Of a stretch of 64,000 nucleotides of DNA, positions 5,691-24,550 are shown piece after piece. The stretch is from Patiria pectinifera (lineage: Eukaryota > Echinodermata > Asteroidea > Valvatida > Asterinidae): NCBI GenBank assembly GCA_029964075.1, contig CM057149.1:33128900-33192899 (forward strand). Reading direction: 5' to 3'. Below the pieces are notes generated by a model. That model was not told the DNA's origin, searched no databases, and was given only the letters and a program-made list of their open reading frames with translations. The number at the start of each line of letters is the position of its first letter. The first letter of the stretch is position 1. The position numbers were made by a program, and so were the translations under genes.

Positions 5691-5937
5691 TTATCCGTCA
5701 CTACACGGGCCGTCAGCACCAAAGGCGGTCTCCTGCTGCATCGGGACCAGAAAGCTGTCGTCTGTGACACCAGGTCCTTGGCTATGTTTGATGGGTCGCT
5801 TACCAACCACACCCGCACTAGGAGCTGCTACGTAGTCGTGGTCTCCCTCCAACAGTTCTTCCAGCTCGTTGGCAACTTGGACGAAGGTGCAACGTGATTT
5901 GGGGTTGTCCTGCCAGCAACGTACCATTATGCCGTAG
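5691..5937 (-). CDS. Copy A exon 27: end of kinase and truncated tail
   Basis: Continues the kinase C-lobe with the conserved RCW-x-DNP stretch, then a short tail holding a DYVAAP tyrosine site. Translation stops at TAA (5691-5693). In copy B the same codon is GAA and the frame runs 23 residues further, to a DYVNK motif. The DNA for that extension is still present below the copy A stop (to about 5625), so the change is one nonsense substitution. Confidence 0.85.
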
Positions 5938-23900: not shown

Positions 23901-24550
23901 ATATCCGCTTCCTCTGATACTGATAAAAATAAACTGCTTTCCAGGCTTCTTCCCGTAATTGGTGGAAAACGTCCTCGAATAACAACGTTTTCCCCAGCAT
24001 AAGTAACAGCCGTATAAAGCATGTCTCGCCCACCTCTTCCTGGAGCCATCAGACTAACAGTAGATGCATCCTCAAACCCTGCAACGTTGGGAACCGATTC
24101 CATCATCACGTTACTTATATCTTGTAACTGTCGTAACTGACAAATACCATCATACACGCCACCACAGGTTATCAAACTGTTTGGCCGAGTACTGTCAACT
24201 ACCAGTATCTTGTTGTAGTTATTTGTACGGTGACAGGGCATCACACTATCTGGCCTACTGTCATCACAGGTTGAAACAATCTGTATCTCTTCCAATCTAC
24301 TGTCCAACCTGTACAACCAATTGACAGCCCCTACATACACATCACCATGGTCACTCAAGGTTAAATGGTTGAACTTTGATGCACGTCTTTTGGGTTCATC
24401 CAAAATATCAGGATTGCCAAAGCTGGACAACTCATAGTCTGACAGGTCTCCCTGCCGCTCAGCTGATGTGGCAAAAACGCTTACGCAGATAATGCTCCAA
24501 GACAGAACAATTGCCCACAAGAGGGTGGAATGTCTCCTACAAGACTCCAT
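5691..24550 (-). CDS. Receptor tyrosine kinase with plexin-like ectodomain, copy A
   Basis: Predicted single-pass receptor of 1658 aa that would bind a semaphorin-like or other ligand outside and phosphorylate tyrosines inside. Coding exons in order: 23408-24550, 21584-21790, 21112-21237, 20622-20737, 19215-19347, 18472-18625, 18043-18142, 17782-17899, 17325-17459, 16691-16786, 16424-16532, 15858-16048, 14910-15064, 14377-14494, 13755-13891, 12807-12974, 12188-12284, 11231-11458, 10638-10814, 9729-9909, 8926-9093, 8554-8634, 7736-7917, 7373-7482, 6946-7108, 6348-6484, 5691-5937. Phases join without a stop. Layout: signal peptide and Sema (exons 1-3), PSI1 (4-5), IPT1 (5-7), PSI2 (8), IPT2 (9-11), PSI3 (12), four IPT-like segments (13-19), membrane span (20), kinase (21-27). 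MET and RON have one PSI; plexins have three, so the ectodomain is plexin-like. Odd points: Ile in the catalytic loop, early stop, GC donor on intron 6, and an unusual GTTGGT donor on intron 18 in both copies. The exon model is inferred, not from transcripts. Confidence 0.85.
6946..7108 (-). CDS. Copy A exon 25: DFG, activation loop and APE
   Basis: Encodes ADFGLSRDM (DFG at about residues 1488-1490), a twin-tyrosine activation loop DYYTS (Tyr 1500/1501), [11 protein letters not shown], and ends at TDV just before the WSYGV start of exon 26. Twin activation-loop tyrosines and the KLPxKWMA stretch are as in MET and related receptor kinases. All residues expected for an active kinase are present in this exon. 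Confidence 0.9.
7373..7482 (-). CDS. Copy A exon 24: catalytic loop with Arg to Ile change
   Basis: Encodes the HRDLAA catalytic loop (HRD about residues 1468-1470). The next residue is Ile (ATA) instead of the Arg of the receptor tyrosine kinase consensus HRDLAARN; copy B has AGA (Arg) here. One G-to-T transversion explains it. HRD Asp and Asn are intact. Confidence 0.9.
8101..8265. mobile_element. 165-bp insertion with 7-bp target duplication in intron 22
   Basis: TTTACAA occurs at 8094-8100 and again at 8266-8272. Copy B has a single TTTACAA at the matching place (about 34390), an empty site. The insert contains a CGAA...TTCGAAACGTCG stretch and a short A-rich run. The size, the TSD length and the lack of terminal inverted repeats suggest a truncated retroposon fragment; the family is not identified. 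Confidence 0.6.
8554..8634 (-). CDS. Copy A exon 22: glycine loop and catalytic lysine
   Basis: Joined to the end of exon 21 it gives GRGAFGRV (glycine-rich ATP loop, about residues 1351-1358) and VAVK (Lys about 1376). The glycine loop is therefore split across the exon 21/22 junction in phase 1. Copy B gives GQGAFGRV at the same point. Confidence 0.9.
9729..9909 (-). CDS. Copy A exon 20: transmembrane segment
   Basis: Encodes a hydrophobic stretch of about 27 residues (about 1247-1274) followed by CRHLRRKR, a basic stop-transfer sequence. It is the only membrane span apart from the signal peptide. The acceptor here is a normal AG directly before TTGGGC; the paralogous exon in copy B has a shifted AG. 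Confidence 0.9.
11231..11458 (-). CDS. Copy A exon 18: plexin-like IPT segment
   Basis: 76 codons, phase 0 at both ends. [16 protein letters not shown] and YFEDPVY are in the order and spacing seen in the late IPT region of plexins, which supports plexin kinship of the ectodomain up to the membrane. The donor reads ACG then GTTGGT, which is weak, but both copies share it and the phase demands it. Confidence 0.85.
11684..11846 (-). pseudogene. Degenerate duplicate of exon 18 inside copy A intron 17
   Basis: A partial second copy of exon 18 and its upstream intron sequence. The acceptor TTTTGCAG and the first codons are retained, but the frame meets TGA after 24 codons because of a small deletion, and the 3' part of the exon is missing. 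Copy B has no equivalent (37720-38030), so the duplication is specific to copy A. Confidence 0.8.
12188..15064 (-). CDS. Copy A exons 13-17: IPT repeats 3-5
   Basis: Exons 14910-15064, 14377-14494, 13755-13891, 12807-12974 and 12188-12284. Three successive segments begin with IPT-type openings: [28 protein letters not shown] and [23 protein letters not shown] folds of this kind follow PSI3 in plexins and form the stalk of MET. Compared with copy B, exon 14 has one more codon and exon 17 five more. Confidence 0.85.
15215..15500. mobile_element. Solo LTR, 286 bp, with 4-bp target duplication
   Basis: Begins TGTAACG and ends CGTTACA (7-bp inverted ends, TG...CA), contains AATAAA near 15408, and is flanked by ATAC at 15211-15214 and 15501-15504. 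It lies in intron 12 of copy A. Copy B has no such sequence at 40960-40990. No internal retroelement sequence is present, so it is best read as a solo LTR. Family not identified. Confidence 0.75.
15858..16048 (-). CDS. Copy A exon 12: PSI domain 3
   Basis: 63 complete codons with cysteines in the spacing LYKCEV...DCSRC...CVWCG...C....C, closely like the third PSI of plexins, which follows a VxLYKC stretch. It leads directly into the third IPT segment in exon 13. Confidence 0.9.
17782..17899 (-). CDS. Copy A exon 8: PSI domain 2
   Basis: Encodes [17 protein letters not shown] followed by further cysteines. CxxC and CxWC are PSI hallmarks, and the preceding YECSTHTS from exon 7 matches the lead-in to plexin PSI2. 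Confidence 0.9.
18472..18625 (-). CDS. Copy A exon 6: IPT1 part, followed by a GC-AG intron
   Basis: 51 codons plus one base. The only donor that keeps phase with exon 7 (G + AT = Asp) is GAG/GCAAGT, a GC donor. Copy B shows the same at 51195. GC-AG introns are a known minority class, and conservation in both copies supports it. Confidence 0.8.
19785..20618. mobile_element. 834-bp non-autonomous DNA transposon at the exon 4 donor
   Basis: Ends are CAGTCATGTGGTTGC and its exact inverse, flanked by TACC on both sides (19781-19784 and 20619-20622). Copy B has the unoccupied ...GACTTACCTTCG at its exon 4 donor. No transposase is encoded. A related copy lies inverted at about 54443-55371. A 4-bp TSD with CAG ends suggests a Chapaev-, Ginger- or Sola-like group, unresolved. 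Confidence 0.85.
20622..20737 (-). CDS. Copy A exon 4: PSI domain 1
   Basis: Encodes [12 protein letters not shown] followed by DPYCGWC; exon 5 continues with CTRYSDC. This is the canonical plexin/semaphorin PSI1 after the Sema domain. The donor now reads GTACAG instead of GTAAGT because a transposon lies against it. Confidence 0.9.
22783..23150. repeat. Tandem duplication of about 190 bp in copy A intron 1
   Basis: Two adjacent diverged units each run from TTTTAGGT..GGCAACCTGTGCATT to an A/T-rich tract with TTTCATTTCATTTTATGCA. Copy B has one such unit (about 57113-57300). Confidence 0.7.
23408..24550 (-). CDS. Copy A exon 1: signal peptide and most of the Sema domain
   Basis: 381 codons in one exon, ending phase 0 at GGG/GTGAGT. 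The first 30 residues form a signal peptide (basic MESCRRHS, then a hydrophobic core). The rest is Sema beta-propeller sequence with [14 protein letters not shown] and SALCVYRM landmarks. The ATG is chosen because it is shared with copy B at the start of the signal peptide. A splice acceptor TTTTTTACAG at 24625 in the 5' leader implies an upstream non-coding exon. Confidence 0.9.

Follow-up and report, generated by a model that had tools for sequence, protein, structure and literature searches.

Two tandem Met-LP receptor kinase genes in the sea star Patiria pectinifera and the probable exchange of their ectodomains with RasGAP plexins

How does a complete plexin ectodomain come to stand in front of a tyrosine kinase? 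The question is raised by a stretch of 64,000 nucleotides from Patiria pectinifera (assembly GCA_029964075.1; C21:33128900-33192899, where C21 denotes contig CM057149.1), hereafter the window, in which one gene of this kind had been read from the letters alone (the original prediction). We found two, copies A and B, and consider it highly probable, judging from sequence comparisons, that both are intact tandem receptors of the Met-LP type with an active-looking kinase of the MET/TAM class, and that their ectodomains have repeatedly been exchanged with those of RasGAP plexins. Positions below are those of the window, E1-E27 are exons numbered as in copy A, and the features are collected in Table 1.

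Two intact plexin-kinase genes

For copy A, the coordinates, strand and exon numbers of the original prediction proved exact (ATG at 24550, stop ending at 5691, minus strand, 27 exons); all junctions are in phase, and the introns are GT-AG with the sole exception of a GC donor after exon 6. The domain reading held equally well. On whole proteins, Pfam finds a Sema domain (2.2e-12 in A, 1.2e-12 in B), six IPT domains (TIG_plexin, TIG_2 and four TIG stretches) and a full tyrosine kinase (PK_Tyr_Ser-Thr, 2.7e-88 and 1.3e-91). The same search, which the original prediction had proposed as a check, upheld its three PSI domains in exons 4, 8 and 12, rather than one: three whole-protein PSI stretches were found in B and two in A, and when exons of copy A were tested alone, exons 4 and 8 scored 32.9 and 34.0 bits against PSI; exon 12 is matched only by PSI_Plexin-B, at 33.3 bits alone and 26.6 bits in the whole protein (cut-off 27). 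The predicted single membrane span was likewise recovered: hydropathy in 19-residue stretches exceeds 2 at just two places, the signal peptide and residue 1258 (A) or 1251 (B). A second, broken copy of exon 18 at 11681-12031, inside the intron preceding copy A exon 18, was excluded from the gene model.

In a phmmer search of the PDB, residues 47-1215 of the copy A ectodomain align in one piece to Plexin-A4, the best match (484 bits, 8.9e-144), compared with 196 bits for full-length MET (7mo7) and at most 163 bits for Plexin-B1 fragments; this alignment of the whole ectodomain led us to reject chance similarity. For the copy B kinase, the leading PDB entries were a two-kinase EGFR chain (337 bits summed, 168 per domain), MER (254 bits) and MET (248 bits), and the glycine loop, VAVK, HRD, DFG and an activation-loop YY pair are found in both copies.

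Copy B is a second full gene in the same window that was absent from the original prediction. Exon boundaries carry over from A to B in 26 of 27 cases, including the GC donor, with exon 17, placed by hand in copy B, differing in length. Comparison of the window with itself puts the starts of the tandem repeat unit at about 648 and 26078 and its ends at about 24765 and 58938. Over the whole protein, synonymous divergence (dS) between the copies is 0.155 and nonsynonymous divergence (dN) 0.075, giving a dN/dS of 0.48 (0.34 in the kinase, 0.57 in the signal peptide and Sema), and 54 of the 55 cysteines of copy A are retained in copy B. With both frames complete and this dN/dS, pseudogene status was rejected for either copy; read in this way, A and B are two intact, tandemly duplicated Met-LP genes.

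The copies differ at the catalytic loop, where copy A has HRDLAAIN, and copy B and all 13 other kinases read have HRDLAARN. An early stop also removes from copy A the tail ending DYVNKIVIR, which is kept in copy B and in the seven other copies of the array described below. The tyrosine of the SYLVP motif is Phe in copy A and 6 of these 7 copies, and Tyr in B, L005, L009 and L010. With HRDLAAIN and a shortened tail, copy A is probably the weaker kinase, signalling less than copy B; its Ile and early stop, read in one assembly, may be an allele.

Different histories of ectodomain and kinase

A search of the 613.5-Mb assembly with the copy B kinase identified nine close last-exon copies at C21 32.91-33.39 Mb, A and B included. 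In each of the other seven, exons 20-27 are open with AG/GT (8/8), and L001 has all 27 exons in order. Two more diverged kinase genes, L009 and L010, lie at C21 26.7 and 26.9 Mb (8/8 exons of E20-E27); for L008 the last exon alone was clearly found; and L011-L014, at C21 39.0-39.2 Mb, all have exons 22-26 (4/4). L015 (C21, 0.15 Mb) is Met, its kinase scoring 297 bits against human MET, 262 against RON and 242 against MER, with Sema and weak PSI and IPT matches upstream. The plexin RasGAP domain (PF08337) gave 52 matches, each of them either on C21 or on C550, an unplaced scaffold. Because Met, the Met-LP genes and the placed plexins were all found on C21, they are linked.

The RasGAP plexin on C550 (L036 and L037), whose tail pieces match Plexin_cytopl and Plexin_RBD, reaches 74-96% identity with copy A over E1 and E4-E16, 81% in E18 and 61% in E19, and falls to background from E20. 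Against the same copy, the kinase gene L009 is 54% identical in E1, 27-84% in E4-E19 and 49-92% in E20-E27. Synonymous divergence at E1 is 0.25 for A-B, 0.31 for A and the C550 plexin, and 0.27 for B and the C550 plexin; at E4-E16 it is 0.48-0.83 for A and the C550 plexin and saturated for A-L009, a pair with dS of about 0.8 at E20-E23. The introns of copy A and the C550 plexin are hardly alignable. By these exon comparisons, the ectodomain of the window's genes resembles that of a RasGAP plexin more closely than that of L009, a kinase gene.

The original prediction had called for separate ectodomain and kinase trees, and in the trees built here, of the Sema exon and of the kinase, the two histories disagreed. 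The Sema-exon tree holds 24 rows of the 40 E1 matches (the 16 left out are split pieces, distant plexins, Met pieces and three of a group at 43-44%), with tails attributed according to where kinase or RasGAP matches lie and on which strand, and 6 of 24 rows lacking one; a RasGAP exon was found after the tree downstream of one tail-less row, C21:5309721. A single clade of the 12 kinase-bearing rows was rejected by the approximately unbiased test (p-AU 2.7e-82), as was a clade of the array with L009/L010 (p 0.0037), and the clade that holds the array also takes in three RasGAP plexins and a row whose tail is unassigned (95/89). In the kinase tree, by comparison, 15 Met-LP kinases stand together in a set of 21 rows (93/92) and 12 in a set of 16 rows (87/92). 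The best tree places them outside MET plus MER, and neither a joining with MET (p-AU 0.094) nor one with MER (0.067) is rejected. On these trees, kinase and ectodomain disagree in history.

A second kinase-plexin pair stands apart from the array. The Sema exon of L011 lies 8.7 kb from that of the RasGAP plexin at 38969 kb (plexin 38969), head to head, and in E1 the two share 313 of 355 residues (88%), with dS of 0.04-0.10 along the exon; the L011 exon is 44% identical to the array. Twelve of the 15 exons in E5-E19 could be compared, exons 10, 14 and 17 of L011 not being recognised, and 11 of these are 75-94% identical to plexin 38969, against 39-69% for L011 ectodomain exons elsewhere in the genome. 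The twelfth, exon 7, shows 52% in an alignment running into a stop, where L011's own copy reads only 65%. In the Sema-exon tree, L011 is sister to plexin 38969 (100/100), with end branches of 0.07-0.08 and an inner branch of 2.3 that carries a long-branch warning. Its membrane exon is plexin-type, 89% identical to that of plexin 38969, and joins the kinase in frame. The membrane exon of the array genes, a type also present in L009, differs from it, and because L011 and the array use different membrane exons, at least two plexin-kinase junctions are indicated. The intron after the membrane exon is in phase 1 in copy A, L011, L014 and the C550 plexin, and the intron before it in phase 0 in copy A, L011 and the C550 plexin, so that either tail can follow without a frameshift.

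Along the Sema exon itself, divergence is uneven. With distant rows left out, group-mean dS was taken from 17 of the 24 rows and the profile along the exon from 14; a further comparison used 14 plus one separate pair. Among the 14 array-group rows, residues ~177-236 (copy A numbering) have dN of 0.40-0.48 and dS of 0.74-0.93 by group of pairs, and residues ~276-351 hardly differ, including where kinase genes are compared with RasGAP genes (dS 0.05), with 231 of 240 bases the same in copy A and the C550 plexin. Against L009 and L010, dS in the latter block is 0.17-0.24. We infer that the block has been recently homogenised beside a patch that either escaped homogenisation or is kept diverse. 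The patch is not general, with no unusual silent divergence there in the pairs L009/L010, 5069/5157 and L011/38969, and its dN/dS of 0.46-0.59 is no demonstration of positive selection; the available text of PMC7327498, PMC8155012 and PMC4308982 gave no usable residue list to place residues 177-236 on the semaphorin contact surface. A further homogenisation island is seen in the catalytic-loop exons E24-25, where dS for A-L009 is 0.09 and that of adjoining kinase exons 0.8-1.2.

Further loci bear on the family. Beside a plexin gene at C21 39.07-39.18 Mb, the Met-LP-related kinase genes L012, L013 and L014 have a membrane exon with an ATG just 5′ of the span, and no same-strand plexin ectodomain exon was found in the 17-20 kb read upstream of them; they are possibly membrane kinases without an ectodomain. 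Just below the window, L041 (C21:33125378-33126520) is an open family Sema exon with no downstream kinase or RasGAP among the matches listed. The plexin at C21:5145445-5158665 has RasGAP exons 84-91% identical to those of the C550 plexin and a Sema exon only 44% identical to that of copy A, so ectodomains may have been exchanged among plexins too.

Elsewhere in the window, an insertion with inverted flanks at 42270-49450, perhaps a mobile element, sits in copy B intron 9-10 and holds two inverted arrays of a 19-base repeat (42310-42785 and 48973-49387). A 772-amino acid open frame at 61150-63468 (plus strand), which we take to resemble a BEL/Pao-type retroelement polyprotein, has only a weak DUF1759 match below the cut-off (E 0.0076). 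Rfam and tRNA scans of the window gave no matches.

Table 1. Features of the two Met-LP genes, in window positions
Feature	Positions	Strand	Description or basis
Met-LP gene copy A	5691..24550	-	27 exons, 1667 amino acids, open frame intact
Copy A exon 1 (signal peptide and most of Sema)	23408..24550	-	Hydropathy peak at residue 10
Hypervariable Sema-exon stretch, residues 177-236	23843..24022	-	Substitution comparison across rows
Homogenised Sema-exon block, residues 276-351	23498..23725	-	dS 0.02-0.06 against three RasGAP plexins
Copy A exon 4: PSI 1	20622..20737	-	Pfam on exon alone, PDB alignment
Copy A exons 5-7: IPT 1 (TIG_plexin)	18043..19347	-	Pfam, residues 566-653
Copy A exon 8: PSI 2	17782..17899	-	Pfam
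Copy A exons 9-11: IPT 2 (TIG_2)	16424..17459	-	Pfam, residues 721-816
Copy A exon 12: PSI 3	15858..16048	-	PSI_Plexin-B match
Copy A exons 13-19: IPT 3-6	10638..15064	-	Four TIG stretches (Pfam)
Copy A exon 20: plexin-like stalk, membrane span, cytoplasmic start	9729..9936	-	Phase 0 in, phase 1 out; Kyte-Doolittle hydropathy 2.64 at residue 1258
Copy A exons 21-27: juxtamembrane stretch, then tyrosine kinase and a short tail	5691..9093	-	Pfam, residues 1353-1611
Copy A Ile codon in HRDLAAIN	7381..7383	-	Arg in copy B and 13/13 other family kinases read
Copy A stop codon	5691..5693	-	Copy B and 7/7 other array copies continue to tail ending DYVNKIVIR
Met-LP gene copy B	31973..58698	-	27 exons, 1683 amino acids, open frame intact
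Copy B exon 1 (Sema)	57556..58698	-	Exon mapping from copy A
Copy B exon 20: membrane span	35873..36077	-	Hydropathy
Copy B exons 21-27: kinase, then a longer tail that includes the SYLVP and DYVNK tyrosines	31973..35224	-	Exon mapping, PDB search, motifs

Explanations for the shared ectodomains

Under the exchange reading, ectodomains would have been swapped repeatedly between kinase and RasGAP genes through duplication, unequal crossing-over or gene conversion, and the phase-1 intron that directly follows the membrane exon, in kinase and RasGAP genes alike, may have helped one tail to replace the other. In the resulting receptors, a semaphorin-like bivalent ligand would bind Sema and bring two receptors together, the paired kinases would cross-phosphorylate at the YY pair, and pYxN-type tyrosines in the tail, a motif that serves as a site for Grb2-type SH2 adaptors, would recruit such adaptors. 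Where a plexin has this same ectodomain, its response to ligands of that class would run through the RasGAP domain. Dimeric semaphorins are described as cross-linking two plexins (PMC4308982).

Several observations weigh against this reading or narrow it. The join of exons 20 and 21 rests on splice sites. Copy A and the C550 plexin are distant at E2 (47%), E3 (64%) and E17 (56%), and at E2 copy A is closer to L009; C550 is itself an unplaced scaffold. Exchange was read in one assembly, with one RasGAP relative followed from exon 1 to tail and the remaining RasGAP rows assigned by the position and strand of tail matches. Within the array clade, the nine kinase rows plus the tail-less row (97/95) branch apart from the three RasGAP rows (92/91), and E1 dS averages 0.37 between tail types compared with 0.26 within the kinase array, so mixing has not been free. 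In the kinase tree, the 93/92 grouping of the full set is not starred, the reduced set gives 87/92, and long outgroups are in play. Between A and B, dN/dS reaches 1.02 in the membrane and juxtamembrane part and 0.92 in the tail, on few changes.

The separate branches would also be expected from one ancient plexin-kinase fusion followed by copying of Met-LP and plexin pairs as segments, with their likeness kept by slow, selected divergence and no later swapping. This account draws further on the suggestion in PMC6374515 that a segment with Plexin-B beside Met-LP was repeatedly duplicated in Acanthaster, and on the presence on C21 of the Met-LP-type kinase matches and of all PF08337 matches except those of C550. 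We nevertheless consider it rather unlikely: dS is patchy, near zero in one part of exon 1 and high beside it and in other exons; L011 and its neighbour are nearly alike along exon 1, while L011 is far from the array; and there are two different junctions. The low silent divergence of residues 276-351 could instead reflect nucleotide-level constraint, such as an exonic enhancer or splicing signal, since exons can bear regulatory signals and copy A and the C550 plexin scarcely align in their introns; but the same block has dS of 1.5-2.5 against L011, plexin 38969 and two other plexins, which makes constraint in place of gene conversion quite improbable.

Two accounts concern the origin of the layout rather than its spread. 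The original prediction had offered either a plexin-kinase fusion or an ancestral MET form that never lost a full plexin ectodomain. Fusion fits better, with the ectodomain exons near RasGAP plexins and at least two plexin-kinase junctions, and the ancestral form is not required, though the test does not reject a clade of Met-LP and MET (p-AU 0.094). Met-LP kinases near MET and MER, and Met on the same chromosome, speak for the ancestral form. It is left unlikely by ectodomains that find their nearest matches in this genome's own RasGAP plexins, and by at least one kinase gene, L011, whose plexin ectodomain and membrane exon almost duplicate those of its neighbour. The evidence being genomic DNA, the ectodomain and kinase exons might alternatively belong to two adjoining genes, to which we assign a very small probability. 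Exon 20 encodes a plexin-like stalk and the span, and exon 21 the juxtamembrane stretch and the start of the glycine loop; the phases agree, and A, B and seven other copies all retain the splice sites of exons 20-27. On these grounds the two-gene reading was rejected, and PMC6374515 reports the layout from other phyla.

Relation to known receptors and meaning

As the original prediction had read, the layout differs from both MET/RON and plexins. MET and RON have one PSI and four IPT domains, and copies A and B, with a different count of each, were rejected as members; the likeness lies in Sema, the IPT domains, a MET-like kinase, the YY activation pair and a pYxN-type site in the tail, as in MET. 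An extracellular furin-type motif (RX[KR]R), a further point of difference, was found in neither A nor B. Plexins A and B share the full ectodomain in order, with Plexin-A4 as the best PDB match, and the C550 plexin has the same intron phases flanking the membrane exon, but copies A and B carry a tyrosine kinase in place of the Plexin_RBD/RasGAP tail, and none of the 52 PF08337 matches lies at 33.1-33.2 Mb of C21.

The original prediction erred in knowing no described family with this layout. Met-LP, a Met-like kinase with a complete plexin ectodomain, was described in 2019 from Lophotrochozoa and Echinodermata (Junqueira Alves et al., PMC6374515), with one gene in Capitella, one in Aplysia and four in Acanthaster, and A and B have its complete plexin ectodomain, one membrane span and intracellular tyrosine kinase. 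That paper calls Met-LP polyphyletic, proposes two independent kinase acquisitions and leaves the ligands open; its main text does not contain the words gene conversion, recombination, hypervariable, exon shuffling, mosaic or synten. It was the only article on Met-LP and plexin found in the open-licence literature, where no title among the matches listed concerned tail exchange. The receptor architecture itself is already known, as are several copies in an echinoderm and a plexin neighbour in Acanthaster (PMC6374515); the new part is the genome-level sharing of ectodomains, measured here against RasGAP plexins. To this are added nine or more close genes arrayed in tandem, two or more kinds of junction, a Sema stretch that is hypervariable, and candidate relatives that may lack an ectodomain.

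Plexin-A4 and a semaphorin are present in starfish coelomocytes (PMC13409769), which makes immunity or cell migration a sensible field in which to seek a role. The L011/plexin 38969 pair, with closely similar Sema exons and unlike tails, offers a natural experiment on ligands and on kinase acquisition. Paired activating and inhibitory receptors such as KIR, SIRP and Siglec combine like ectodomains with different tails and exchange among neighbours. A shared ectodomain on two kinds of tail, in two instances, is the likeness here. We tentatively raise the possibility, which we hold to be doubtful, of a chromosome-wide paired-receptor repertoire in which gene-converted plexin ectodomains with hypervariable Sema patches are set on RasGAP or kinase tails for recognition (self/non-self, immune or cell-sorting), the kinase having been fused more than once. 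A hypervariable patch in the Sema domain of a plexin would be unexpected in a guidance receptor, and, if this possibility were true, the sea star would have a recognition system built from axon-guidance parts. The question that the locus opens is whether one ligand-sensing module may be switched between RasGAP and tyrosine-kinase signalling by recombination within a single genome.

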